A stretch of DNA of 42,375 nt from Caldilineales bacterium (GCA_019695115.1 JAIBAP010000053.1:1-42375), one strand, 5' to 3'. Counted from the stretch's first letter, positions 27,373 through 42,285 are shown. The notes: generated by a model not told the origin, from the letters alone. A program made the numbers and translations.

Positions 27373-28707
27373 ATGAAAACCGAACGCTTGCTCGATGACG
27401 CCCGCGACCGGGCGATGGACATCCTGCAAAGGTGCGTGACGCCGCACGGCTTCCGGGCCTCGGGTCTGGCCGCGGGCTACCCGCAAATCTGGGCGCGCGA
27501 CAGTATGATCGTCTTTCTGGGTGCGGTCGCCAGCGGCGACCCCGGCCTGGTGGCCGCCGGCCGGGCGTCGCTGGCAACGATGGGGCAGAGCCAGTCGCCG
27601 CGGGGCCTGATCCAGCTCAACATCAATCCCGACACCGGCTATGTCAGCACCGAAAACGCCGGGGCGGTGGATGGCAACCTGTGGTATGTGTTGGGCCACT
27701 ATCTGCACTTCAAGTTGACCGGCGATTGCGATTTTTTTGTGCAGCACTGGCCGACGATCGAGCGAGCGATGTATTGGCTGGAATACCAGGACATGAACGA
27801 GTGCGGGCTGGTGGAGGTACCGGAGGCGGGCGATTGGATGGATCTGCTGGCCGTCCGCTACAACGTGCTCTACGACAATGTGCTGTACTATGCCGCCACG
27901 CTGGCCTATGAGGAACTGGCGCAACAGCTGCCACCGGAGAAGACCTGCCACCATCCCGAAGTTGGGGCCGAGGGCATCCACGAGCGGCTCAACCTGCTGC
28001 TGTGGATCGACCGTTGTTGGGTGGCCGAGCACTTCGCCGAACACCTGGAGAAGCTCAAGAGCATCCGGCTGGAGTGGTTCATGCTCTATCACAACGTCGG
28101 CACCATCTCCAGCCGGCCGTTCTATCTGCCCTGGGTGGCGTTTCGCGAGTATGGGGATTGGTGCGACAGCCTGGGCAACTGCCTGGCCATCCTCGCCGGC
28201 GTCGCCGACCGGCATCGGGCCGAGCACATCCTGCGCTACATGCACCAGGTGGGGATGGCGGAGCCGTATCCCACCAAAGCCATCCACCCGCCCATCTACC
28301 CCGGCGAGCCGAACTGGCGCGAGTATTACCGCAGCCGCACGCTCAACCTGCCCCACCAATACCACAACGGCGGCATCTGGCCGATGATCGGCGGCTTCCA
28401 TGTGGCGGCGCTGGTGCAGCACGGCTGGAAATCGGAGGCCGAGCGGCTGCTGGTCTCGCTGGCCAAAGCCAATCACCAGGGCGTCTACCAGCCGTGGGAG
28501 TTCACCGAATGGTTGCACGGCGAGAGCGGCCACCCCATGGGCTATGCACAGCAAGCATGGTCGGCGGCGATGTTCGTCTATGCCGAGCACGCCGTGCGTA
28601 GCGGCCGCCTGCCCCTGTTCGACGATCTGCTGGCAACCAAGCCTGCCTCGGCCCGCGCTGCCGAAGTGAACGAAGCCTACGACCATGCCGGCGGCGGGCC
28701 GGTGTAA
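27373..28707 (+). CDS. Alpha/alpha-barrel glycoside hydrolase (amylo-1,6-glucosidase/invertase-like)
   Basis: This 444-residue protein looks like a six-hairpin (alpha/alpha) barrel glycosidase. Typical segments are GYPQIWARDSMI (about residues 35-46), GAVDGNLWYVL, PEAGDWMDLLA with a candidate catalytic Asp, QYHNGGIWPMIGG and ESGHPMGYAQQAWSA near the end with a candidate Glu. The closest families are debranching enzyme-type, GH63/GH15-like or neutral invertase-like; the exact substrate is unknown. No signal peptide, so it is cytoplasmic and acts on imported oligosaccharides. AGGTGA lies just before the ATG. A sugar-binding lipoprotein gene follows 136 bases downstream, which supports a role in sugar use. 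Confidence 0.75.
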   Translation: MKTERLLDDARDRAMDILQRCVTPHGFRASGLAAGYPQIWARDSMIVFLGAVASGDPGLVAAGRASLATMGQSQSPRGLIQLNINPDTGYVSTENAGAVDGNLWYVLGHYLHFKLTGDCDFFVQHWPTIERAMYWLEYQDMNECGLVEVPEAGDWMDLLAVRYNVLYDNVLYYAATLAYEELAQQLPPEKTCHHPEVGAEGIHERLNLLLWIDRCWVAEHFAEHLEKLKSIRLEWFMLYHNVGTISSRPFYLPWVAFREYGDWCDSLGNCLAILAGVADRHRAEHILRYMHQVGMAEPYPTKAIHPPIYPGEPNWREYYRSRTLNLPHQYHNGGIWPMIGGFHVAALVQHGWKSEAERLLVSLAKANHQGVYQPWEFTEWLHGESGHPMGYAQQAWSAAMFVYAEHAVRSGRLPLFDDLLATKPASARAAEVNEAYDHAGGGPV

Positions 28708-28768
28708 GACCTGCGCGCCTTCGCCTTCGATTCGGTTGTGGTGGTGCGGCTGCGTGGTGCGAAGTGTG

Positions 28769-28774
28769 TATAAT
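28769..28774 (+). promoter_or_regulatory. Putative -10 box of the sugar-binding lipoprotein gene
   Basis: The sequence TGTGTATAAT ends here with a perfect TATAAT, 70 bases before the ATG at 28844. No -35 match is seen at 17 bases, so it may depend on an activator. The same ten bases precede the LysM lipoprotein gene. Confidence 0.5.
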
Positions 28775-28843
28775 TCAATTCTACGCCAACATGCGCCCGC
28801 TGCGAGCGCATCAACCTTTCATCAAACTCACAAAGGAGCCAAC

Positions 28844-30202
28844 ATGAGAAGCAAGCATATCTTCCTGTTCATCGTTCTGGCGCTGTTTGCCGCGCTTGTT
28901 CTGTCGGCCTGCAATCCGCCGGCCGCGGCGCCGCAACCGGCCGCCACCCAGGCGCCCGCCGAGCAGCCCGCCGAACCCACCGCCGCCCCTGAACCGGTCA
29001 CCATCACCTGGGCCTTCTGGGGCAGCCCCGAAGAAGCCGCCAGCCACAAAGTCGTCGCCGACGCCTTCATGGCCGCGCATCCCGAGATCAAGATCGAGCT
29101 TTGGAATCAGCCCTGGGATGATTACTTCACCAAGATCCAGGCGCTGTGGGCCAGCAACGACGCCAAAACGATCCCGGACATCGCCTTCCTGTGGCCGACG
29201 CCGCAGTACGCAGCCGAGGGTGTGCTGGAGAATCTGGATTCCTACATCAAGGCTTCGGGCTATGACCTGAACGACTACTGGCCCGGGCTGCTGGAATCGG
29301 CCAGTTACAACGGCAGCGTCTACGGTTTCCCGCGCGATATCGAGGTCAACGTCCTCTACTACAACAAGGATCTCTTCGATGCCGCTGGCGTCGAATACCC
29401 TGATGAAAATTGGACGTGGGACGACCTTTTGGCTGCCGCCGAAAAACTGACGGTGAAGGACGCCAGCGGCAATGTGACGCAGTATGCGCTGGCAGCCGAG
29501 GGCGGCAAGTTCTACAAGTGGCTGAATCAGAACAATGGCGCTGTGCTGGACGATTACCGCAACCCGAGCAAGTGCGCATTGGCCGAACCGGCCTCGGTGG
29601 CGGGCATCAAGTTCTTCTCTGACATGATGGACAAAGGCTATGCCATGCGCCCGGCCGACCTCAACCAGGCTGGCGGCGACGCCGGCGTGTTCCAGAGCGG
29701 ACAGGCGGCCATGATCCTGCAGAACACCAGCCGCGTCTCGGCCTTCAACAAAGCCAGCATGAACTACGATGTGGCGGTCGTGCCCATCCCTGCGGGCGGC
29801 AAGCGCTGGAACGGCGCTGGCGGCGCCGCCTGGGTGATGAGCAGCGGCAGCGACAACAAAGATGCGGCCTGGACGTTCTTGCAGTGGCTGCAGAGCACCG
29901 ACGGCGGCGAAAAGATCTATACCGAGCGCGGCGAGATCTTCCCCGCCCTGCAATCCACCGCCAATAGCCCGGTGTTCATGACCGATCAGCCCCCGGCCAA
30001 CAAGAAAGGCATCATCACCGAAGCGGCGGCCTCGGGCGTGGGTGGTTTCGGCTACTTCCCCGAATGGGGTGAACTCGACGGCTCGGTGCTCGGCCCGACC
30101 ATGGACACGATCTGGGCCGGCGAAGCCACGCCCGAAGAAGCCCTGCCCGCCCTGTGCGAGCAGGTGAATCAGTTCCTGAAGGACAAGGGTTATCCGAAGT
30201 AA
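28844..30202 (+). CDS. Sugar ABC transporter, substrate-binding lipoprotein
   Basis: This 452-residue protein has a signal peptide with lipobox LSAC (Cys23), an Ala/Pro-rich linker to residue 48, and then a family 1 solute-binding fold beginning TITWAFWGSPEEAASHKVV. It is a lipid-anchored receptor for a CUT1 sugar importer. AAAGGAG five bases before the ATG supports the start. Its partner permeases are at 32478-34263 on the same strand, but a restriction-modification cassette of about 2.2 kb is interposed. No dedicated ATPase gene is present; CUT1 systems often share one encoded elsewhere. Confidence 0.93.
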   Translation: MRSKHIFLFIVLALFAALVLSACNPPAAAPQPAATQAPAEQPAEPTAAPEPVTITWAFWGSPEEAASHKVVADAFMAAHPEIKIELWNQPWDDYFTKIQALWASNDAKTIPDIAFLWPTPQYAAEGVLENLDSYIKASGYDLNDYWPGLLESASYNGSVYGFPRDIEVNVLYYNKDLFDAAGVEYPDENWTWDDLLAAAEKLTVKDASGNVTQYALAAEGGKFYKWLNQNNGAVLDDYRNPSKCALAEPASVAGIKFFSDMMDKGYAMRPADLNQAGGDAGVFQSGQAAMILQNTSRVSAFNKASMNYDVAVVPIPAGGKRWNGAGGAAWVMSSGSDNKDAAWTFLQWLQSTDGGEKIYTERGEIFPALQSTANSPVFMTDQPPANKKGIITEAAASGVGGFGYFPEWGELDGSVLGPTMDTIWAGEATPEEALPALCEQVNQFLKDKGYPK

Positions 30203-30377: not shown

Positions 30378-31604
30378 ATGGCCACTCAACAGTTAAGTCT
30401 TATCACCAACGAAGAGCGGCGCGTAGGTTGGTACCAAGATGTCCATCCTCCAACCCGGCCGGAGGAGGTCACACCCAGCACAAAACCAGAAGACCTGGAC
30501 CTGAATTGGCGCGAAAGCGATTTGCCGGAACGAATACGGACCAAGCACGTTCATCGCTTGCATCCATATCTGGGAAAGTTTATTCCTCAACTGGTTGAGG
30601 TCTTTCTGCGCATGTATTTCAAGCCAGGCGAGACCGTATACGATCCATTTTGTGGCTCTGGCACGACGCTCGTCGAGGCCAACGTGTTGGGCGTTAATGC
30701 CATTGGCTGTGATATCTCTGGGTTCAACTGTTTGCTTTCAAAGGTGAAGACTCAGAAATATGATGTTTCGCGAGCGAAAAGGGAGATTATTGATATTTTG
30801 CAGGAAACTGAAACCCATTGTCGTCCTAATTTGTTTTCCTCGGCTGGCGATGAAGTGATCAAAGAAACCGGCAATAGTTATCTTTTGGAATGGTATGCAC
30901 CGCAAGCAAGAAAAGAATTGTTGACTTACAATAGTTTGATTGGCAGTCATTCTTATCCTGATTTGCTCAAGATTATCCTATCTCGCTCTGCGCGTTCTGC
31001 TCGCTTGACAACTCATTTCGACCTTGATTTTCCTAAAAAACCGCAAACAGAATCTTACTACTGCTATAAGCACTCTCGATCTTGCAGCCCGACACAAGAG
31101 GCGCTAGGTTTTCTGCGCCGCTACAGTTTAGATACGATTGAGAGGATTGTGGAATTTGCAGCACTGCGCACAAACGCTCAAGTCACCGTTCTCAACGCAG
31201 ATTCAAGATACGTCGAACTGCCCGACCAAATAGATGGAATCATTACTTCCCCACCTTATGTTGGCTTGATTGACTATCACGAACAGCATCGCTATGCCTA
31301 CGAGCTTTTGGGCCTGACCGATAAGCGCGATCTCGAGATCGGCGCAGCCGCTCGCGGCTCATCGCAAGCGGCAAAGAAAGCTTATCGTGAAGACATCATG
31401 GCAGTGTTCACACACGCCGCACAGCATATGAGACCAGGATCACCGGCAGTTGTGGTTGTGCATGATAAACATGATCTGTATCCTGAAATTGCGAGCGCCT
31501 GTGGGTTCAAAGTGGAGTGTGTGATCGAGCGACATGTCAATCGCCGCACAGGTCGCCGCGCCGGGGAGTTCTTCGAGGAAATCTATGTTTGGAGGCGGCA
31601 GTGA
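30378..31604 (+). CDS. DNA methyltransferase of a type II restriction-modification system
   Basis: This 408-residue protein is an N4-cytosine/N6-adenine type methyltransferase. SAM motif I is DPFCGSGTT (residues 89-97), and the catalytic motif IV is TSPPY (290-294), in the order I-then-IV with about 190 residues between them that may include target recognition. It would protect host DNA from the endonuclease encoded next. No clear ribosome-binding site precedes the ATG at 30378. The stop overlaps the next gene (GTGA). Base composition is clearly AT-richer (many A/T-ending codons) than the sugar genes on both sides, which points to acquisition. Confidence 0.88.
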   Translation: MATQQLSLITNEERRVGWYQDVHPPTRPEEVTPSTKPEDLDLNWRESDLPERIRTKHVHRLHPYLGKFIPQLVEVFLRMYFKPGETVYDPFCGSGTTLVEANVLGVNAIGCDISGFNCLLSKVKTQKYDVSRAKREIIDILQETETHCRPNLFSSAGDEVIKETGNSYLLEWYAPQARKELLTYNSLIGSHSYPDLLKIILSRSARSARLTTHFDLDFPKKPQTESYYCYKHSRSCSPTQEALGFLRRYSLDTIERIVEFAALRTNAQVTVLNADSRYVELPDQIDGIITSPPYVGLIDYHEQHRYAYELLGLTDKRDLEIGAAARGSSQAAKKAYREDIMAVFTHAAQHMRPGSPAVVVVHDKHDLYPEIASACGFKVECVIERHVNRRTGRRAGEFFEEIYVWRRQ

Positions 31605-32416
31605 TCGAGAAGCAGACACGCGCAGAAATCAAGGGCTATCTGCAGGGCTTCGTTCATGCCCTGATCGAAGAACATCGCCCCGAGAAGCGCGCATCGCTCG
31701 TGGCAGAGAGGCGCGTCACCTATTCGTCAAAAGAGGGTGGTCTCAAACCGTTTCATGAAGCAATCATTCCGGCCGAGGTCATTCGCATCAGCGAGTTCGA
31801 ACGCTCGTTCTCGACCAAACTTGGAACCACATTCGAAGAATGCGCCCGCCTGATAGCCAGACAGTCTTTCGAGGTCGCACAACGGGGCTACAAGGCGAGC
31901 GGGAGGTTGCCTCTCGCTGCTGCGGCGAAAATAGAAGAAATAGTCGCCCAACTCGGCCAAAAGGAGAAAAGGTTATCTTTTCTCGACATGATCGATCTTG
32001 TTTTGAGAATCCAGGATGACACCTGGGTTGAACGACCTGCCATTGCCGATCTCTATCTCAAAGAGTCAAATGGGCGCGAACATTTCTTCGAGATCAAATC
32101 GCCAAAGCCAAACAAGGGCCAGTGTCTTGAGATAACCGAGAGATTGCTCAGAATTCATGCCATAAAGCAGGCAAACCGCCCATCCGTCAATGCCTACTTT
32201 GCGATGGGTTATAATCCTTATGGACGGTTGAAGACATCTTATCAACATAGCTTTTCGCTGCAATACCTCGATATCGCGAATCAGTTGTTACTCGGCGAGG
32301 AGTTTTGGGCCTACATCGGCGGGGCTGACACTTTTGATCAGTTGCTGGAAATCTACCAGGAAGTGGGGTATGAGATGGGGAAAACAATCGTAGACGCGCT
32401 TGCCTTCGATTTCTGA
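31601..32416 (+). CDS. TdeIII-like type II restriction endonuclease
   Basis: This 271-residue protein resembles the TdeIII family of type II endonucleases, with ERSFSTKLGTTFEECARLIA (residues 68-87) as the clearest family-like segment. A PD-(D/E)xK core is visible: Asp150 in AIADLYLKES and Glu164-Ile-Lys166 in HFFEIKSPKP. It would cut unmethylated DNA; TdeIII itself recognises GGNCC, but specificity cannot be read here. The start is GTG at 31601 with GGAGG five bases upstream, overlapping the methyltransferase stop, so methylation is produced first. It shares the AT-rich composition of the methyltransferase gene. Confidence 0.82.
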   Translation: MIEKQTRAEIKGYLQGFVHALIEEHRPEKRASLVAERRVTYSSKEGGLKPFHEAIIPAEVIRISEFERSFSTKLGTTFEECARLIARQSFEVAQRGYKASGRLPLAAAAKIEEIVAQLGQKEKRLSFLDMIDLVLRIQDDTWVERPAIADLYLKESNGREHFFEIKSPKPNKGQCLEITERLLRIHAIKQANRPSVNAYFAMGYNPYGRLKTSYQHSFSLQYLDIANQLLLGEEFWAYIGGADTFDQLLEIYQEVGYEMGKTIVDALAFDF

Positions 32417-32477
32417 ACACCAGCACTCACGAGCCTTTGCCGTGGATTCGCAGCCAACAAGTCAGCAGCCACGTTCG

Positions 32478-33395
32478 ATGACGGCATCCCGCTCCCCCTT
32501 CCGCTGGCGGCCTGACCAGCAGTGGGAGGCGTATGTCTTCATCCTGCCGGGGCTGCTGGGGTTCCTGGTCTTCGTCTTCGTGGCGCTGGCGGCGTCGCTG
32601 GGGATCAGCTTCCTGGATTGGGGGCTGAAAGGGGCGAAGGGCTTTGTGGGGCTGGGGAATTACCGGGAATTGCTGCGCGACCCGGTGTTCTGGCGGGCGT
32701 TCGGGAATACTGCCTTCTACATCGTCACCATCGTCCCGCTGCAACTGGCGCTGGGCCTGGCCATCGCTGTGGCCCTGAACCAGGCCATCCGGGCGCGAGC
32801 GGCTTTCCGGCTGATCTACTTCCTGCCGGTGGTCACCACCATCGTCGCCGGGGCCATCGTCTTCCGGCTGCTGCTGGCCAAGAACGGCCCCCTGGCCGAC
32901 CTGGTCAATGGCTTTGGCCTGCTGACCGGGCTGCCCATACGCCTCCCCGACATGTTCGGCAGCTCGGCCTACTCCAAATGGTCGGTGGTGCTGCTGACGC
33001 TGTGGAAAAACGTCGGTTTCACCCTGGTCATCTATCTGGCGGCGCTGCAAGGCGTGCCCAAAGAGTTGCAGGATGCCGCCCATGTCGATGGGGCCAATGG
33101 CTGGCAGCGTTTTCGCAACGTCACCGTGCCGTTGATCAGCCCCACCACTTTCTTCCTGTTCGTGTTGCAGACCATCGGCGCCTTTCAGCTCTTCACCGAG
33201 CCGTTCGTGATGACCCGCGGCGGCCCCGCACAATCCTCGATGCCGGTGGTGCAGTACATCTACGACAACGCCTTCCGCTTCACGCGCATGGGCAAAGCCT
33301 CGGCCATCGCCTGGTTCCTGTTCATCTTCATCTTCGGCTTTACGCTGGTGCAGAACATCATGCAGCGGCGCTGGGTGCACTATGAGACAGAGTGA
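32478..33395 (+). CDS. CUT1 sugar ABC transporter permease (MalF/UgpA type)
   Basis: This 305-residue inner-membrane protein has about six transmembrane segments and the coupling EAA-loop DAAHVDGANGWQRFRNVTVPL (about residues 200-219), which contacts the ATPase. It is one half of the translocation pore of a sugar importer; the binding lipoprotein is encoded at 28844-30202. The ATG at 32478 is preferred over 32400, which overlaps the restriction endonuclease end. The next permease follows after about 13 bases. GC content returns to the high level of the rest of the locus here, right after the cassette. Confidence 0.92.
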   Translation: MTASRSPFRWRPDQQWEAYVFILPGLLGFLVFVFVALAASLGISFLDWGLKGAKGFVGLGNYRELLRDPVFWRAFGNTAFYIVTIVPLQLALGLAIAVALNQAIRARAAFRLIYFLPVVTTIVAGAIVFRLLLAKNGPLADLVNGFGLLTGLPIRLPDMFGSSAYSKWSVVLLTLWKNVGFTLVIYLAALQGVPKELQDAAHVDGANGWQRFRNVTVPLISPTTFFLFVLQTIGAFQLFTEPFVMTRGGPAQSSMPVVQYIYDNAFRFTRMGKASAIAWFLFIFIFGFTLVQNIMQRRWVHYETE

Positions 33396-33408
33396 GGCGT
33401 GAGACGTG

Positions 33409-34263
33409 ATGAGTGAATCGGCGGGGCCAACATTTGCACGAGCCGGTGACGGTCGCCTGGCCCGTTACGCTCTCTATGCGGCGTTGATCCTGGGCAGCCT
33501 GCTCATGCTGCTGCCGTTCTTGCTCATGCTGCTGGTGTCGCTGCTGCCGCTCGAAGCCTTCATGTCGCGGCAGTTCTCGCTCGGCCAGCTGACGTTGAGC
33601 AATTATGTCGAAACCTTTCGGGTGGCGCCCTTTGGCCGCTATATCTTCAACAGCGCCGTGGTGGCGGTCACGGCCACGGTGGGGCAGATGGTGATCTCGT
33701 CGCTGGCGGCCTTCGCCTTCGCCCGCATGCGTTTTTGGGGCCGCGAAGCGATCTTCCTCCTCTTCCTGGCCACGATGATGATCCCCGAACAGGTGACGCT
33801 GATCCCGCGCTTCCTCATCATCCGCGAGCTGCACTGGTACGACACCTTCTATGCGCTGATCGTCCCCAACCTCTTCACCGCCCTCAGCGTCTTCCTCCTC
33901 CGCCAATACTATCGCGGCATCCCGCTCGACCTGGACGAAGCCGCGCGCATGGATGGCGCCTCTAGCCTGCGCATCTGGTGGCAGGTGATCATGCCGCTAA
34001 GCTGGCCGGTGCTGGCGGCCCTGACCGTTTTCCGCTTCCAGGCCGTCTGGAACGACTTCCTCTGGCCGCTGGTCGTCACCGGCTCGGACGAGATGCGCAC
34101 CATCCCCATCGGTCTATCGTATTTCGTCGGCCAGTACAGCACGGCCTGGAATCTGTTGATGGCCGGCTCGGTCGTCGCCCTGCTGCCCGTCCTGGTCATC
34201 TACCTGCTGGCGCAGAAAACCTTCATCGAGGGCATCACGCTGTCGGGGATGGGGGGGAGATAG
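33409..34263 (+). CDS. CUT1 sugar ABC transporter permease (MalG/UgpE type)
   Basis: This 284-residue inner-membrane protein has six predicted segments and the EAA-loop EAARMDGASSLRIWWQVIM, typical of the MalG half of CUT1 sugar importers. It pairs with the upstream permease and starts 13 bases after it (GTG 33406 is an alternative). The sequence MSESAGPTF starts at ATG 33409, preceded by GAGGCGTGAG. No ATPase gene follows; the next plus-strand sequence is a repeat fragment. Confidence 0.92.
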   Translation: MSESAGPTFARAGDGRLARYALYAALILGSLLMLLPFLLMLLVSLLPLEAFMSRQFSLGQLTLSNYVETFRVAPFGRYIFNSAVVAVTATVGQMVISSLAAFAFARMRFWGREAIFLLFLATMMIPEQVTLIPRFLIIRELHWYDTFYALIVPNLFTALSVFLLRQYYRGIPLDLDEAARMDGASSLRIWWQVIMPLSWPVLAALTVFRFQAVWNDFLWPLVVTGSDEMRTIPIGLSYFVGQYSTAWNLLMAGSVVALLPVLVIYLLAQKTFIEGITLSGMGGR

Positions 34264-34713: not shown

Positions 34714-37700
34714 CTACGGCTCGGGCGCTTCAATCGTCGCCCGCACCTGCAACCCATCCACATCCTCCCTCTCGCCCGGAATCCACGGCGCCAGGCAGGC
34801 GGGATCCTTCACGCAGGGGTCGGTCAGCGCCCGGAGGAACTCGACCAGGTCGGCAATCTGGCGGTCGGACAGGGCCAGGTCGCGCAGGGGCGTGCGTCCG
34901 GCGGCGCGGTCGGCGGCCAGCTTGGCCAGCGCCCGGCTTGTGTTCTCGGCCATGTGCTCGGTCTTGGCCTGGGGGTCGATCAGGGTCGGGTCGTAGGCGG
35001 CGACGGCGGCGGCCGGGTTCAGGTGGTGGCGGACAATGGCTTCGAGGGTGGGGTAAGCGCCATCGTGGCCATACGGCCCGGTGACCTCGACATTGAGCAG
35101 CGTGGGGGTGCGGAAGGCATAGAGGTCTTCGGGCCGGCCGCTCTCGCGAAAGCGCCCAAAATCGTCGTCGCCAAAGCGACCATCGCCCTTGCCCATGCCG
35201 ATCTGTGGCACGGCCAGCGTGTAGAACTGCTCGTCGGTGAAGAAATCGCCGCTGTGGCAGGCGGCGCAACCGGCCCCGCCCTCTTCTGGTAGACGGAAGA
35301 AGAGCAGCGCCCCGCGCCTGGCGCCCTCAGCCAGCGCCGCCTCGTCACCCTGCACATACTGCTTCCACGGCGTGTTCACGAACACCTGCGAGCGTTCGTA
35401 AGCGGAGATGGCGGCGGCGATGCCCTCGTAGGCAACGAAGATATCGACCGCTGGGCTGGCGCCATAGGCATTCTGGAACTCGGCTGTCCAGCCGGGGTCA
35501 GCCAGCTCGCCTCGTCCCACCCCGAAATTGCCCAGCCGGGCGATGAGATGCGCCCGCACAAACTCGTTGGGTCGATGCCGCTCGAAGCTGTGACCGCGCA
35601 TCTCCTCGACCGAAGTGACCGGAAAGCGCGCCTGGGCGGCGACCATGTCGGCGCCCGCCGCCGGGTCGGCCTGGCCGAACACCACATCGGGCGTGCGGAT
35701 GCCGGCGTCGCCCAGCTTTTCGATGCGGCCATCATGGAAGAGCACCCGCTCCCACAGGCCGATGTTGAAGGTGGAGGGGGCATTGCGGGGCACGTTGAAG
35801 AGGCCGCTGGGGTGCGCTCGTCCGGGGCCGAGCAGGTCGGGGGCGGGGGCGCCGACGCCGATCGACAGCGGCAAACCATCGCCGCCACCCAACAGTGGGT
35901 GATGGCAACTGACGCAGGCCGAGTCGAAATCGCCGCCCAGGGCCTTGCTGAAGAACAGTTTCATCCCCAATTGCGCCAGCGGCGAGTCGATGCCGGGTAA
36001 ATCTCGGCCGGTGCTGGGGTCGCCCGTCAGCCCGCGGGCGGCGATGATGGCCCGCAGATCGGCATCGAGCGAGCCGACCTCGGTGGGCAGAGGAACGGTC
36101 GTTTGCGGCTGCTGGCGGCTAACCCGCACGAGCGTGTTGGGCTGGAGATCGGTCACGGTCGAGACGGCGCCATCGGGCCAGTGGATTTCCAGCGCCTGTG
36201 GCCGGGCGATGGCGGGGAGACCAAAGTGCAGCCGGGGCGAATCGCCGGAGAGATAGCCGCTGCCCGACCGCACGTCGCGGGTGAAGTCGCCGGCGCTGGT
36301 TTTCAGGATGACGGTCGCGCCCAGGGCGTGGGTGTTGGCGCTTCCTGGCCAGGAGAGATCGACCAACAGGCTGGCCCCGCCGCACAGCCGGTTCTCGAAC
36401 AGTTGCGCTGGCGAGCGCAGGTTGTTGACGACGATATCGAGGTCGCCATCGCCGTCGAGATCGGCCATGCTCATGCCCCGGCCGCCTGAGGTGGACCCCA
36501 GTTGCCAGCTGGGGGCCGGGCGGAAGTAGCCGTCGCCGATGTTGCGCAGGGCCTGGTTTTCCTCCACCAGTTCGTGGTTGGGCAGGTGCGCCATCATGGT
36601 CGATTCGGCCATGCCGTTGACGGCATAGAGGTCGAGCAGGCCATCCTGGTCGAGGTCGCCGAACTTGGCCGACCACGTCCAGCCGGTGGCAGCCAGCCCG
36701 CGCGGGCGGGCGGCATCCTGATAGCCTGCCACCCCCGACCAGGCTTGCAGCACGTTGGCCATGATTTGCGGGTCGCCGGGCAGGGGATCGACCATGTCGG
36801 CCATGATCGGCTCCCAGGCAGCCACGGCGGCGGGGTCTTCGGCCTGACCGATAGGCGGCATCATATCGGTCGAGAAAAGCTCGAAGCGACCGTCGTTGTC
36901 GATGTCGCCGGCGTCGAGGCTCATGGTGCTGTGGCTCATGGTCTCGAAGAACGTTTCCCGCCAGCCGGTCGGCGCCCACAGCCAGGCGTAATCGGGCACG
37001 AGGAAGTCGTTGCCGACGACGATGTCGCGCTGGCCGTCGCCGTCGATGTCGAAGAGGGCGATGGCCATGGCCTGCGCCGGCTTCTTCAGCAGTTGGCCGG
37101 CGAAGCGCCCGCCCTGGTTCTGGTAGGTGAATACGCCCGCCCCGCCGCCGGTGAGGAATTCGTTGCCCAGGTCGTCGAGCAGGCTGGCATCGTAGGAGCC
37201 GGTGACCAGGTCGAGGTCGCCGTCGCCATCGAGGTCGCCCCAGGCCAGGGCATAGGCGGGGCGGGCGATGCCGGGCAGGATTTGCGTCTGGAAATGCCCG
37301 CCGCCGGTGTTGCGCCAGAAGGTGATGCCGCCGGTGCGCCGGGTGAAGACGATGTCGAGCCATCCGTCGGCATCGACATCGACCAGGTTGACGCTGCGCG
37401 AGTCGCCGTGAGCCATGCGTTCGCTGCGGAAGCGAAGGTCGCCCTCGTTCCACAGGATGGTGTTTGGCCCGGCGTGATTGCCGAGGACGATGTCCTCATC
37501 GCCATCGTTGTCCAGATCCCCCACCGCCACACCGGCGCCGTTGGCCTCGAAGTGATCGACCGTGTCGCCGGGGACGGTGGTGGTGTGGTCGAGTTCATGG
37601 CTGACGAAGGCGCCGGTGCAGGCTTGGGCGGGCGGGCGCAGGGGGGTGCGTTGCACCGCGATGGGGGGCGGGCCGGCCTGGGCCTCTGATCGGGGCAGCC

Positions 37701-37770
37701 CTGGCCCCAGGCCCAGGCAGAAGAAGAGGAGAAGGAGCAAGGTTGCCAGGCGGCGAAAGGCGGTGTTCAT
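34714..37770 (-). CDS. FG-GAP/ASPIC beta-propeller fused to di-haem cytochrome c peroxidase
   Basis: This 1018-residue exported protein has a signal peptide (residues 1-31). Residues about 60-490 hold FG-GAP/VCBS repeats with calcium-binding loops such as DLDNDGDEDIV, DVDADGWLDIV and DLDGDGDLDLV. An ASPIC/UnbV domain (about 490-560, with the SGSGYLSGDSPRLHFGL segment) follows, as in CRTAC1-type proteins. The C-terminal 450 residues are a di-haem cytochrome c peroxidase/MauG-like domain with haem motifs CVSCH (619-623) and CAACH (835-839) and the peroxidase segment FHDGRIEKLGDAGIRTPD. It would act outside the membrane, reducing peroxide or oxidising a partner. The two halves are usually separate proteins. 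Confidence 0.85.
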   Translation of the reverse strand: MNTAFRRLATLLLLLFFCLGLGPGLPRSEAQAGPPPIAVQRTPLRPPAQACTGAFVSHELDHTTTVPGDTVDHFEANGAGVAVGDLDNDGDEDIVLGNHAGPNTILWNEGDLRFRSERMAHGDSRSVNLVDVDADGWLDIVFTRRTGGITFWRNTGGGHFQTQILPGIARPAYALAWGDLDGDGDLDLVTGSYDASLLDDLGNEFLTGGGAGVFTYQNQGGRFAGQLLKKPAQAMAIALFDIDGDGQRDIVVGNDFLVPDYAWLWAPTGWRETFFETMSHSTMSLDAGDIDNDGRFELFSTDMMPPIGQAEDPAAVAAWEPIMADMVDPLPGDPQIMANVLQAWSGVAGYQDAARPRGLAATGWTWSAKFGDLDQDGLLDLYAVNGMAESTMMAHLPNHELVEENQALRNIGDGYFRPAPSWQLGSTSGGRGMSMADLDGDGDLDIVVNNLRSPAQLFENRLCGGASLLVDLSWPGSANTHALGATVILKTSAGDFTRDVRSGSGYLSGDSPRLHFGLPAIARPQALEIHWPDGAVSTVTDLQPNTLVRVSRQQPQTTVPLPTEVGSLDADLRAIIAARGLTGDPSTGRDLPGIDSPLAQLGMKLFFSKALGGDFDSACVSCHHPLLGGGDGLPLSIGVGAPAPDLLGPGRAHPSGLFNVPRNAPSTFNIGLWERVLFHDGRIEKLGDAGIRTPDVVFGQADPAAGADMVAAQARFPVTSVEEMRGHSFERHRPNEFVRAHLIARLGNFGVGRGELADPGWTAEFQNAYGASPAVDIFVAYEGIAAAISAYERSQVFVNTPWKQYVQGDEAALAEGARRGALLFFRLPEEGGAGCAACHSGDFFTDEQFYTLAVPQIGMGKGDGRFGDDDFGRFRESGRPEDLYAFRTPTLLNVEVTGPYGHDGAYPTLEAIVRHHLNPAAAVAAYDPTLIDPQAKTEHMAENTSRALAKLAADRAAGRTPLRDLALSDRQIADLVEFLRALTDPCVKDPACLAPWIPGEREDVDGLQVRATIEAPEP

Positions 37771-37981: not shown

Positions 37982-39124
37982 ATGAATCGACGAGAGTTTT
38001 TGGGCTTTGCCGCGAAAGGCGCGCTGGGGGTGTCTGCTCTCAGCCTGGCCGGTTGTGACAGCAGCCAAATTGTGCCCCAAGCAGCGGCCGGACAGGTTGC
38101 GGCGGCGGTTGCCGATGCCTCGCTACCCAGCATTGATTGGCAGATGGCGACGAGTTGGCCCGCCAATCTGGATACGATTTTCGGCGGCGCCCAGATTTTT
38201 GCTGAGCGGGTGGCGGCCATGACCGGCGGCAAGTTCAAGATCACACCGCACCCGGCGGGTGAATTGGCGCCGGCCCTGAAGGTGCTGGATGTGGTCTCGC
38301 AAGGAGCCGTGCCCATCGGCCACACCTCCTCCTACTACTACATGGACAAGAGCCCGGCCACTGCCTTTGGCACATCCTTGCCGTTTGGCCTCACGGCGCA
38401 ACAACAGAACTCCTGGCTCTACGAAGGCGGCGGCCTGGCGCTCATGCAGGACTTCTTCGCCCGTAAGTTCAATATCATCCAGTTCCCCGCTGGCAACACG
38501 GGCGCGCAGATGGGCGGCTGGTTCCGCAAGGAGATCAACACGGTGGCCGACCTGCAGGGCCTGAAGATGCGCATTGCCGGCCCGGGTGGGCAAGTGATGT
38601 TCAGGCTGGGCGTGACCGTTCAGACGCTCCCTGGCGGCGAAATCTATGCGGCGCTGGAAAGCGGCGCCATCGATTCCGCCGAATGGGTCGGACCGTATGA
38701 TGACGAGAAGCTGGGCCTGAACAAGGCGACCACCTTCTACTACACGCCCGGTTGGTGGGAGCCAGGCCCAACCCTCGATGTGCAGATCAACCTGTCCGAG
38801 TGGAACAAATTGCCTGCTATCTACAAGGAAATCATCCAGACAGCCTCCTATCAAGCCAATATGCAGATGTTGGCCCGCTACGACGCCCGCAATACCGAGG
38901 CCCTGGAGCGTCTGCTGGCCCAGGGAGTGCAGCTCCGCACCTACAGCACCGAGATTCTGGATGCGGCGCAAACCATAGCCTTCGATCTGTTCGATGAATA
39001 CGCAGCCAGCGACGCGGATTTCAAGGCTATCTTCGCCGAATGGAAGCCATTTCGAGATCGCGCCTATGCCTGGAGCAACCTGAACGAGGGCGTGTTCGAG
39101 CGCTTCGTCTACGCGGCCCTGTAG
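37982..39124 (+). CDS. TRAP-type substrate-binding lipoprotein, Tat-exported
   Basis: This 380-residue protein has a twin-arginine signal [10 protein letters not shown] followed by a lipobox (Cys25 in LSLAGC), so it is folded before export and then lipid-anchored. The remainder matches DctP/TakP-type TRAP receptors, which bind organic acids such as 2-oxo acids: [39 protein letters not shown] and [17 protein letters not shown] are typical segments. AGGAGGGG just before the ATG supports the start. The TRAP permease genes are not in this window. A strong promoter and a leader hairpin precede it, and a strong hairpin follows. Confidence 0.92.
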
Positions 39125-39180: not shown

Positions 39181-42100
39181 TCACTGCAACATCAGCGGCA
39201 AATACACAGGCAGATTCCCGGCCAGAACGAGCAGGGGCGCTTCGTTGTCCTGGCGATGTGATTCCAGCGTGGTGGTGGTGATGATGAGGTCGCCGTGCAA
39301 ACGGGCGCCGTGCTCGACCGTGACCGGGATGCGGGCCGAGATGGTCACTTCGCCCGCCTGGGCGCTCTGCAACCGGCCCAAGTCCCAGGTGAGCACCTGG
39401 CCATCTTCCTGGCGTTCCAGCGCCGCCCGCACCTGGCTCAGGCGCAGAGCAGCGCTGCTGGCGGCCGGTTGCGGCGCCGGGTCAGTGGCGATGACGCCGA
39501 TCTCCGGCGCCAGGACGGCGATCAGTTCGGTGTCGGCGGCGCTGCCCTCGCCGCGGTTGCCATAGGGCAGGGTGAAGGTGAAGACCTCGCCCGGCGGCGG
39601 CATCAACACCGGCCCGCGCGTCCACACGTCCGGGACTGTGGCGGAGCCTAAGCTCACTTCGTCCAGCCCTACCCAGGGGAAAGTGGAACCGGCGGCTTTG
39701 TCCAGGCGGAACCGAACGGTGAGCGGCTGGCCGAGCCAGCGTGAAAGGTCGAATGAGCGATAGGCCCAGCCAGACGTGGGATCGCTGGTGCTGAAGACCG
39801 TGCGCCGGCCGGCGCTGTTCTCCACCTCCACCGTCAGTGTGTTGCCGCCGGGCGGGCCGCCGGGGTCGAAGCGGTAGGCGAAGGTGAGGGCAGGTGCAGA
39901 CAGCGACGAGGGGAGGAACAGGCGTTGTTCGAGGGTGCTGGTTTTGGCAGGTTGGCCGTCGACCCGCGGCCAGGAAACGTTTATCTTGCTGGCTGATTCG
40001 TTCCACCAGTCTGCTGCCCATCCAAACGCAACCCCAGCCTGCTGTTCGCTTGTACTCGTGAGCATCCCAGCCGAGTCGCCGTCCGTTCCTATTGGCTGTG
40101 GGTGCGCCCAATTGCCATCTAGGGGCCGCCACGAATAAAAGACCCTGACATCATCCTCAAACAGCTGCGTCCACAGCAGATACTGGCCGTCACGGTCGTG
40201 AACTGTCAGCACCAAGTCGTTTTGAGGGGTTGAAACCGCTGCGGCCAATTCTGGGGGCGACCAGTCGCCAATGGGCAGCAAAGTGGCATAGTAGATACCC
40301 GGTTGCTTCAACCAGGCAGCGTGCAGGCGACCGCCCTCATCCATCTTGACCTGAAACGGCAACAGCGAAACTGACCTGTCGATCCGTTCGGGTGCAGACC
40401 AATTTCCATGCTCATCGAAGTAGCCATAGCAGAGACCGCACTGATCGCCGACCCATAGGAAGTGCAGGCGTGTGCTTTCAGCGGCCATCTGAAACTGTGC
40501 GGCGTCAGCGGTCATGTTTGGACGACCGACATCCGTCCAGACGCCGTCGAGCGAGCGTTCTCTTATGGCCACCCCATCCGTTGGGTGCAGCCAGGCCACG
40601 AAGATTTTGCCGGTGGGAGATAGCGCCATATCGAGCGGGAATGGGCTTGTATAGCGCATCGATGCCACTGTTTCGGCAGCGCCTCCCTGACCGACCTGCC
40701 GTCGCCACGTGTAACGAATGTTTATATTTTCATCCCTCACCTCCGACCAGAGAATATGGGCATTGCCGCTTGCATCCACCAGCACCTTACCAAGATGACT
40801 CGCATAGTACGTGGAAATGCTGGCGATGATTTCAGGTTGATCCCACGCGCCAGCCAGGTTGCGGCGCGTGTAGAACACGTAGTGAACTGGCGGATATACA
40901 TTGGTGTCCTCGCCAATCCAAGCGGCATGGGCAACGCCTCCTGGCGTCACGGCCAGCATAGGCTCCCGAAAGTTGTTCAGGCCAAGAGGTTGGGTGAGAT
41001 TGAGAACACCTGACCAAACCCCGTTGGCCGCACGGTTGCGGTAGAAGATATCCTGAATCTGAAAATCAGGGTTGACATGGTTTCGTACGCGTCGCCAAAG
41101 AACATGCAACAGACCGTTGCTATCCAGACCAATGCTCGGAGAGGAACCGGCGCTGACCAGAACAGGGCTGACAAGGCGACTGGGGTCGCCCAGGCGAAAA
41201 CTGCCCGTTCCTGTATGAGCGGAGTCTATCTGCTGCATTCGAGAACCATCGCCGCTCTTGTTCCAGGCTGACGCCAGCGCAGCACCCTCGAAACCACCCT
41301 GAACGACTCTGTCATCTGCCGGTGGCACAACGATATCGAATCCGGCATCTGCATCGCTGGCAGGAAAGACATTGGTAATGGCGCCTTGATCGGGGCGAGA
41401 CCAGGTGACTTCGTAAGAGGTTGCATAGTTAGCCACGTACTTATGATAACGGCCATTGTCATCGCTCCGTACCGGCATAAAGCTATCCGGATTGACGCTG
41501 ACCATCACCCCCTGCATCGGTCGCAAGAGTGTATCGTACACCTTTCCGGCAATGGCCCATGAATACAGCGTTGTCCTCGCCTCGCCTGGCTCGGGCGGCC
41601 AGGCTTCCACATTTTGGGCGCGGTCGATGCCGCGCACACGCAAGTCGTAGGTAAAGCCTGGATTCCCCGTCAACTGAGTGACGGTGCCTTCGCCGTAATA
41701 CGAAGAGAACCAGGTCGAGTCTGGCGGACCCACCTCGCGCATCTGCATCTCGTAGCGATCGATGCCAGAGCCGCCGGGATCGTTTCCTTGCCAGGAAACA
41801 AAACCGGTGTAGCGCATCATCGGCGGCACGGGCAACATCTGGCTCTGCGGCGGCAAAGCCTCCACCGTCGTGCCGGCGTCCCAGTCCGGCGGCCACGGCT
41901 CCTCGTTGCCGGCGTGGTCGCGCGCCCGCACCCGGAAGAAATAGGTGTGCCCGCCCACGCCCCGCCACTCGGCGCTGGTCCAGGTCGTGTCCATCAGCCA
42001 CGGAACCCAGCCGGCATCGACGCCGTCGCGCACCTGCAGATCGAAATTGGCCAGACCGGATATGCCCGCATCCGCCCCGCTCCAGCGCACGGTGAAAGGC

Positions 42101-42285
42101 GATGGCGAGAGGCCAGGCAAGGCCTCCATCGACGACGTGGGCGCCAGACGGTCATTCCCCTGCCATGTCGGCACCATATCGATGCCGCTGCCGGGCAGGG
42201 CGCGCCGATCTTGAAGATAGTTGTATTCGTAATACCGCCCCTGCACCAGATACTCAATTTTTGCGCAAAATTTTGGGAGGAGCAA
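39181..42285 (-). CDS. Large multi-domain secreted-type protein, 5' end apparently truncated
   Basis: The open frame encodes 1034 residues. It starts mid-module at a TTG (42285) with no signal peptide and no ribosome-binding site; an in-frame stop lies just upstream. Visible order: two fibronectin-III-like modules (about 35-240, both with WQGND), a carboxypeptidase-regulatory-like beta domain (about 250-310), a sialidase-like beta-propeller region (about 370-740), a jelly-roll/MAM-like domain with a conserved YRFDPGGPPGG (about 770-880), an Ig/DUF11-like domain, and the tail NLPVYLPLMLQ, which resembles the C-terminal motif of many exported Chloroflexota proteins. The lack of a signal peptide and mid-domain start suggest a truncated gene or a missed 5' end. 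Confidence 0.65.
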   Translation of the reverse strand: MLLPKFCAKIEYLVQGRYYEYNYLQDRRALPGSGIDMVPTWQGNDRLAPTSSMEALPGLSPSPFTVRWSGADAGISGLANFDLQVRDGVDAGWVPWLMDTTWTSAEWRGVGGHTYFFRVRARDHAGNEEPWPPDWDAGTTVEALPPQSQMLPVPPMMRYTGFVSWQGNDPGGSGIDRYEMQMREVGPPDSTWFSSYYGEGTVTQLTGNPGFTYDLRVRGIDRAQNVEAWPPEPGEARTTLYSWAIAGKVYDTLLRPMQGVMVSVNPDSFMPVRSDDNGRYHKYVANYATSYEVTWSRPDQGAITNVFPASDADAGFDIVVPPADDRVVQGGFEGAALASAWNKSGDGSRMQQIDSAHTGTGSFRLGDPSRLVSPVLVSAGSSPSIGLDSNGLLHVLWRRVRNHVNPDFQIQDIFYRNRAANGVWSGVLNLTQPLGLNNFREPMLAVTPGGVAHAAWIGEDTNVYPPVHYVFYTRRNLAGAWDQPEIIASISTYYASHLGKVLVDASGNAHILWSEVRDENINIRYTWRRQVGQGGAAETVASMRYTSPFPLDMALSPTGKIFVAWLHPTDGVAIRERSLDGVWTDVGRPNMTADAAQFQMAAESTRLHFLWVGDQCGLCYGYFDEHGNWSAPERIDRSVSLLPFQVKMDEGGRLHAAWLKQPGIYYATLLPIGDWSPPELAAAVSTPQNDLVLTVHDRDGQYLLWTQLFEDDVRVFYSWRPLDGNWAHPQPIGTDGDSAGMLTSTSEQQAGVAFGWAADWWNESASKINVSWPRVDGQPAKTSTLEQRLFLPSSLSAPALTFAYRFDPGGPPGGNTLTVEVENSAGRRTVFSTSDPTSGWAYRSFDLSRWLGQPLTVRFRLDKAAGSTFPWVGLDEVSLGSATVPDVWTRGPVLMPPPGEVFTFTLPYGNRGEGSAADTELIAVLAPEIGVIATDPAPQPAASSAALRLSQVRAALERQEDGQVLTWDLGRLQSAQAGEVTISARIPVTVEHGARLHGDLIITTTTLESHRQDNEAPLLVLAGNLPVYLPLMLQ

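Follow-up and report, generated by a model that had tools for sequence, protein, structure and literature searches.

The window, i.e. the whole stretch of 42,375 nucleotides analysed from a Caldilineales bacterium of the phylum Chloroflexota (GCA_019695115.1 JAIBAP010000053.1:1-42375), encodes a genuine fusion, in one protein, of an FG-GAP/ASPIC propeller of the CRTAC1 type with a di-haem domain of the cytochrome c peroxidase (CCP)/MauG type. The two parts were joined several times independently, often near genes for sugar import, which points to a hitherto undescribed redox reaction that accompanies extracellular sugar uptake. Our tentative reading, held at somewhat less than even probability, is that of an extracellular peroxide-using redox module on the sugar-capture propeller of the importer. 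Features of the window are listed in Table 1.

Table 1. Coordinates, strand and evidence for features of the fusion gene and the importer genes near it.
Feature	Coordinates	Strand	Evidence
Glycoside hydrolase (GH), GH100/GDE_C-like	27373..28707	plus	67% identity to GH of locus L032; Pfam; PDB alkaline invertases
CUT1 ABC solute-binding lipoprotein (SBP)	28685..30202	plus	Pfam SBP_bac_8; SBPs at propeller loci 56-64% identical
CUT1 ABC permease 1	32400..33395	plus	Pfam; relatives at propeller loci
CUT1 ABC permease 2, convergent with fusion gene	33406..34263	plus	Pfam; relatives at propeller loci
FG-GAP/ASPIC - di-haem CCP/MauG fusion gene, 1018 aa	34714..37770	minus	ORF; Pfam; even codon composition; L053 orthologue
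Sec-type signal region, N-terminal (residues 1-31)	37678..37770	minus	Sequence; comparison with lipoprotein signals of relatives
Seven-bladed FG-GAP/VCBS propeller (residues 51-465)	36376..37620	minus	Pfam; AlphaFold2 model; CRTAC1 9etn match
UnbV/ASPIC domain (residues 481-546)	36133..36330	minus	Pfam PF07593, E 6.5e-18
Short linker (residues about 555-564)	36079..36108	minus	pLDDT dip to about 65, residues 551-560
Di-haem CCP/MauG domain (residues 565-1006)	34753..36078	minus	Pfam; 2c1v Z 28.3; MbnH 6e1c Z 26.9; MauG Z about 26
CxxCH 1 (residues 619-623), predicted peroxidatic haem site	35902..35916	minus	Motif; invariant in 43 rows
His679, CCP Trp94 position (FWDGR to FHDGR)	35734..35736	minus	Alignment; H17/W17/Y4 in relatives
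Gln713...Pro717...Glu723-Met724	35602..35634	minus	Spacing as CCP Gln104/Pro108/Glu114; Q, P, E, M invariant in 43 rows
CxxCH 2 (residues 835-839), predicted electron-transfer haem site	35254..35268	minus	Motif; invariant in 43 rows
His916, haem 2 axial-ligand position	35023..35025	minus	Alignment; CCP Met, MauG/MbnH Tyr there

The fusion gene is a single reading frame, as an earlier note on this DNA had described without stating the strand. It begins with ATG, contains zero internal stops and is single-copy in its own genome. All four Pfam-A matches of its product, i.e. FG-GAP_3 (E 1.6e-43), FG-GAP (8.5e-21), UnbV_ASPIC (6.5e-18) and CCP_MauG (4.3e-28), exceed the curated cut-offs. The closest homologues of the two halves are separate genes in a genome of the same family (G008, locus L029), where a propeller frame of 589 aa and a di-haem frame of 501 aa lie head to tail, both with lipoprotein signals. 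Such an adjacent pair could be merged by an assembly join or a frameshift, and the earlier note had named a break of this kind near residue 580 as the event that would undo the fusion. The position-specific GC content is level along the whole ORF, including the junction, and the codon composition is even throughout. A second signal peptide, sought at the domain junction, is absent: that of the separate MauG gene is missing and about ten linker residues are left. In an independent Chloroflexota MAG (UBA6495, locus L053) the two parts are fused in identical order through a longer, unrelated linker, and its protein and that of the window are sisters in the propeller tree (support 100/97). An artefact is rejected because of this orthologous fusion, the even codon composition and the loss of the second signal peptide, and we consider it extremely improbable. 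In the haem-domain tree, the window and L053 fall within a set of four with L029 and L051, with no finer resolution; a single shared fusion event is the simplest reading. The signal of the fusion protein has no clear lipobox, in contrast to the lipoprotein signals of unfused relatives.

The exported CRTAC1-type calcium propeller proposed earlier is borne out, as far as sequence and model can tell, by the Sec-type signal, the Pfam matches, seven DxDxDG motifs and the structural match to CRTAC1. The motifs are located one per blade, at residues 85, 131, 179, 241, 289, 372 and 437, and are predicted to bind calcium; Cys51 and Cys463 are conserved. Scores of 147.6, 73.9 and 64.8 bits (cut-offs 26.9, 22.1 and 23.4) place the protein among the CRTAC1/UnbV-ASPIC proteins. 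The AlphaFold2 model of the fusion protein, computed from a 67-row alignment, has a mean pLDDT of 89 and a pTM of 0.65, too low to fix how the domains sit relative to each other, which is a point against our reading. Two rows of alignment A3, derived from plasmid records, were omitted for folding. Residues 52-554 match CRTAC1 (9etn) with Z 38.6 and 2.5 Å over 430 residues, and the propeller matches aldos-2-ulose dehydratase (4a7y) with Z 28.6. CRTAC1 proteins (9etn; PF13517 + PF07593) share the seven-bladed calcium propeller followed by ASPIC, but are without a haem enzyme, whereas the subfamily of the window is associated with a bacterial ABC importer for sugars. Among FG-GAP/VCBS propellers, PVL lectins bind sugars and aldos-2-ulose dehydratase is a sugar enzyme, a precedent within the VCBS superfamily for sugar binding or catalysis (PMC8023676); the likeness of the window propeller to the dehydratase is one of fold, with only about 12% identity.

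The second half is a di-haem enzyme of the CCP/MauG type, and the two CxxCH sites noted earlier are indeed found, at residues 619 and 835, according to motif, Pfam and predicted fold. The CCP_MauG Pfam match spans residues 598-809 and a second stretch. Residues 564-1006 resemble di-haem CCPs (Z about 28) and MauG and MbnH (Z 26-27), and the family score, the two CxxCH motifs, the CCP fold and the Gln/Pro/Glu set near haem 1 place the domain in superfamily PF03150. The numbers given for CCP and MauG residues are those customary for these enzymes; the catalytic Gln, Pro and Glu are equated with their CCP counterparts by motif spacing and this numbering, and the column matches come from the alignments. 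His, Tyr and Met are haem ligands; at position 916, which aligns with the axial Tyr of MbnH, the 43 relatives possess His (26), Tyr (11), Met (4) or Asn (2). Since the inactivating His71 of CCPs is Val639 in the window, haem 1 is expected to be accessible, as it is in MauG. As read from the alignment, the haem ligand set is neither that of classical CCPs nor that of MauG. The separate MauG homologue of G008 (L029 2975-4477) has Asn (RQN) at the haem-2 ligand position, in contrast to the His, Tyr or Met found elsewhere.

CCPs (2c1v, 4aam, 1nml) are the closest solved sequences and folds and share both CxxCH motifs and the Gln/Pro/Glu set with the window, so that the haem domain could be a cytochrome c peroxidase clearing extracellular H2O2, with the propeller only anchoring it at the importer or the cell surface. 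Many standalone gammaproteobacterial relatives have no special neighbours, in line with peroxide defence. The classical bacterial CCP, however, has Met at haem 2, a switched His71 loop and Trp94, where the window has His916, Val639 and His679 and, in addition, an attached propeller; and repeated fusion to one propeller type by sugar importers would be needless for a scavenger. We regard peroxide defence as unlikely, although it deserves consideration.

MauG and MbnH oxidise side chains of partner proteins. The haem domain is akin to both (3l4m, 6e1c) in fold and sequence, with no blocking His and with the catalytic residues kept, and like them it has a possible partner close by, here fused or adjacent. 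It might oxidise Trp or Tyr residues in the propeller to which it is joined, or in the adjacent binding protein, into a protein-derived cofactor, for which the Trp364/Trp366 pair, invariant in the propeller subfamily, would be the candidate. The same pair is, however, invariant in many propellers without a MauG neighbour, the axial Tyr is replaced by His916, and the NCBIfam scores remain far below cut-off for MauG of TTQ biosynthesis (equivalog TIGR03791, 92 vs 443.85 bits) and MbnH (TIGR04039, 101 vs 362.85 bits). The His-Xaa-Ser-associated MauG-like model (TIGR03981) aligns over nearly its whole length, with 207 bits vs a cut-off of 340. No mau or mbn genes occur among the scanned window genes. 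The genes that flank standalone MauG relatives in gammaproteobacteria were clustered in search of a shared substrate protein, and only regulators emerged. A maturase role seems distinctly improbable to us.

Hydrazine synthase combines a seven-bladed propeller (beta) with a MauG-like di-haem unit (gamma), which are fused in non-anammox homologues, and CRTAC1 and ABC binding-protein genes adjoin the clusters of such propeller-MauG genes (PMC12758564). Nitrogen-oxide chemistry, with propeller and haem unit acting jointly, would agree with this layout, with a profile match of the haem domain to the gamma subunit (5c2v_C, E 4.8e-11) and with His679 and His916, which mirror gamma-His144 and the bis-His haem (PMC12758564). 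The window propeller, in contrast, is of the FG-GAP/CRTAC1 type with ASPIC, and the gamma-subunit model (NF052341, hydrazine_gamma) scores 23 bits vs a cut-off of 625. The 50 structural matches listed do not contain 5c2v, an absence that carries no weight either way. No alpha-subunit-like gene is seen among the scanned window genes, and the neighbours are sugar genes. His679 is not even kept between the window (His) and L053 (Tyr); its column varies (H17/W17/Y4), and it was rejected as a defining feature of hydrazine synthase-like proteins because of this variation. Chemistry of this kind is very unlikely here.

The neighbourhood carries a full importer set, consisting of GH, SBP and both permeases; the true start of the SBP is probably near 28840. 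A CUT1 ABC-linked propeller cluster, i.e. a propeller of the A2 subfamily with the orthologous SBP and two permeases, is present in the window. Propellers of the subfamily lie near window-related SBP and CUT1 permease genes, mostly directly adjacent, in 23 of the 25 testable loci (those with enough flank), while any CUT1 genes occur in 7 of 20 random control regions (Fisher p 8e-5), although the propeller loci are not all independent because many come from one family. High-scoring ABC orthologues are still rarer in the control regions than CUT1 genes of any kind. Seven loci of the subfamily also possess the GH, of which the window gene is an orthologue. Within Chloroflexota, ABC permeases lie within 5 kb of 7/8 fusions with the FG part first or in triple order, vs 1/12 MauG genes without FG (p 8e-4); the ABC genes near the other FG-first or triple fusions score lower and need not be orthologous. 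Several observations stand against our reading. The fusion gene runs in the opposite direction to the ABC genes, facing the permeases; SBP and permeases are contiguous in related loci but split by a restriction-modification pair in the window; and ABC neighbours are found at none of the four MauG-first fusions of Chloroflexota, nor at L034. Among the ABC-linked propellers seen, only those of the window, L053 and L029 have a MauG partner. The oxidase would be an accessory, because most ABC-linked propellers have no such partner.

The pair between SBP and permeases (30378-32416) comprises a TdeIII-type restriction endonuclease (PF09520, E 2.7e-61) and a DNA methylase. On the other side, a TRAP DctP binding protein (37982-39124) is divergent from the fusion gene at a distance of 212 bp; no DctQ or DctM gene was recognised after it. 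A 1034-aa frame on the minus strand (39181-42285) has only weak fn3, CarboxypepD_reg and BNR matches and is possibly another exported propeller protein.

The propeller subfamily occurs in 94 places in 60 of the 396 genomes of the class and, judged by open-frame lengths, is fused only in the window. The earlier statement that propeller and peroxidase are usually separate thus holds within this subfamily (one fused among 94 places); the fusion is nevertheless no one-off, since both orders occur in several lineages of Chloroflexota and gammaproteobacteria. The domain survey that the earlier note had proposed (80 + about 20 haem-domain loci) recovered the FG-MauG order of the window in L053 and in a second set, L033 (from the window's own genome), L034, L102, L116 and L119. 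The reverse order is present in Chloroflexota (L035-L037, L039) and in the gammaproteobacteria Endozoicomonas, Pseudoalteromonas, Alteromonas, Glaciecola and Woeseiaceae, and a triple order, NHL-type propeller-MauG-FG, in L040, L041, L106, L110 and L129. On the haem-domain tree, five labels call for 8 changes; its starred branches, taken by themselves, already demand two for MauG-FG and three for FG-MauG. Comparison of sequences thus suggests that fusion of the two parts took place about four to five times and in either order, a count that is only an estimate because label changes may be gains or losses. The propellers of the other fusions have only about 23-37% identity to that of the window over aligned parts, in line with separate origins.

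The second fusion of the window's own genome (L033, contig C5, 129334-132477), which belongs to another lineage, is 1048 aa long, has a hydrophobic stretch between its two parts and lies directly behind another CUT1 ABC importer. The triple-order proteins reach about 1400 aa and consist of an NHL/ScyD-like propeller, a di-haem MauG domain and an FG-GAP/ASPIC propeller. In three alphaproteobacterial loci (L120, L126, L127) a MauG gene is convergent with an FG-GAP/ASPIC gene, i.e. linked without fusion, the frames being 3 bases apart in L126 and L127. Shewanella (L091, L093) possesses a 1026-aa protein with a C-terminal MauG domain, the first 510 residues of which are not FG-GAP. A phage origin was rejected on a single remote phage match, restricted to the haem part, and a plasmid origin on plasmid matches covering at most 70%, in one place and in the other domain order.

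Among the gammaproteobacterial fusions, the MauG-FG gene of Glaciecola sits between SusC/SusD genes and sugar MFS and GH32 genes, which supports our reading; the whole region (L092 2906-14498), with SusC-like receptor, SusD, MauG-FG fusion, sugar MFS and GH32, is a fructan-type utilisation locus. The MauG-FG protein of Alteromonas macleodii plasmid pTE101a (WP_101566838.1) and its relatives likewise combine both domain types in one exported protein, but in reverse order and with a separate origin on the tree, and the gene neighbours a PQQ alcohol dehydrogenase, Rieske, 2-hydroxyacid oxidase and TonB receptor. Three gammaproteobacterial loci (L049, L085, L086) contain the series sigma-54 regulator, PQQ alcohol dehydrogenase, Rieske, hypothetical, MauG-FG, 2-hydroxyacid oxidase and TonB receptor. 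That Alteromonas, Pseudoalteromonas and a third gammaproteobacterium possess a fixed gene set of this kind, and not glycan genes, is a point against our reading.

In the sugar-uptake reading that we prefer, this Chloroflexota propeller subfamily would work outside the cell as the partner of a CUT1 ABC importer for oligosaccharides, in many loci together with a glycoside hydrolase. The calcium-stabilised propeller is likely to bind the substrate sugar or to dock with the binding protein of the transporter. Before fusion, the haem half would have had its own gene next to that of the propeller, encoding a secreted lipoprotein like the one in G008, and it would have lost its signal peptide when the two were joined. 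H2O2 may react at haem 1, at the Gln713/Pro717/Glu723 site, which would be open because the blocking His is absent, and haem 2, with putative His/His ligation, would store or pass on the second oxidising equivalent. The oxidation would then act on the substrate held by the propeller, possibly the glycan that has been captured or a compound attached to that glycan. Haem loading, peroxidase activity and ligand of the fusion protein are predictions from sequence. The "extracellular redox enzyme attached to a large binding scaffold" of the earlier note stands as an exported propeller-enzyme fusion with predicted peroxidase activity, and its scaffold can be refined to a companion of a CUT1 importer and glycoside hydrolase. 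A wider scheme, in which a glycan-binding calcium propeller and a di-haem oxidase, repeatedly fused, would carry out a hitherto undescribed peroxide-driven oxidation of glycans outside the cell ahead of ABC or SusCD import, and so match in function the copper LPMOs and the flavin sugar oxidases, is speculative and appears improbable at present.

A search of the open-licence literature gave no published account of the FG-MauG linkage, a negative of little weight, and a single relevant paper (PMC12758564). Both domain families are known, and their combination is already contained, unremarked, in public records such as that of the Alteromonas plasmid. New is the importer linkage of the propeller subfamily, and the repeated fusion together with this linkage forms the interesting part. 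To our knowledge, environmental bacteria possess FG-GAP/ASPIC proteins of the CRTAC1 type in abundance, nearly all of them without known function, and we know of no substrate for many MauG/CCP relatives. The fusion of the window is a simple fused counterpart of the propeller-plus-MauG layout of hydrazine synthase. Repeated, independent fusion in both orders and a common site by sugar importers link the two poorly understood families and offer a testable role for them, i.e. the redox handling of glycans or of peroxide where sugar enters the cell.
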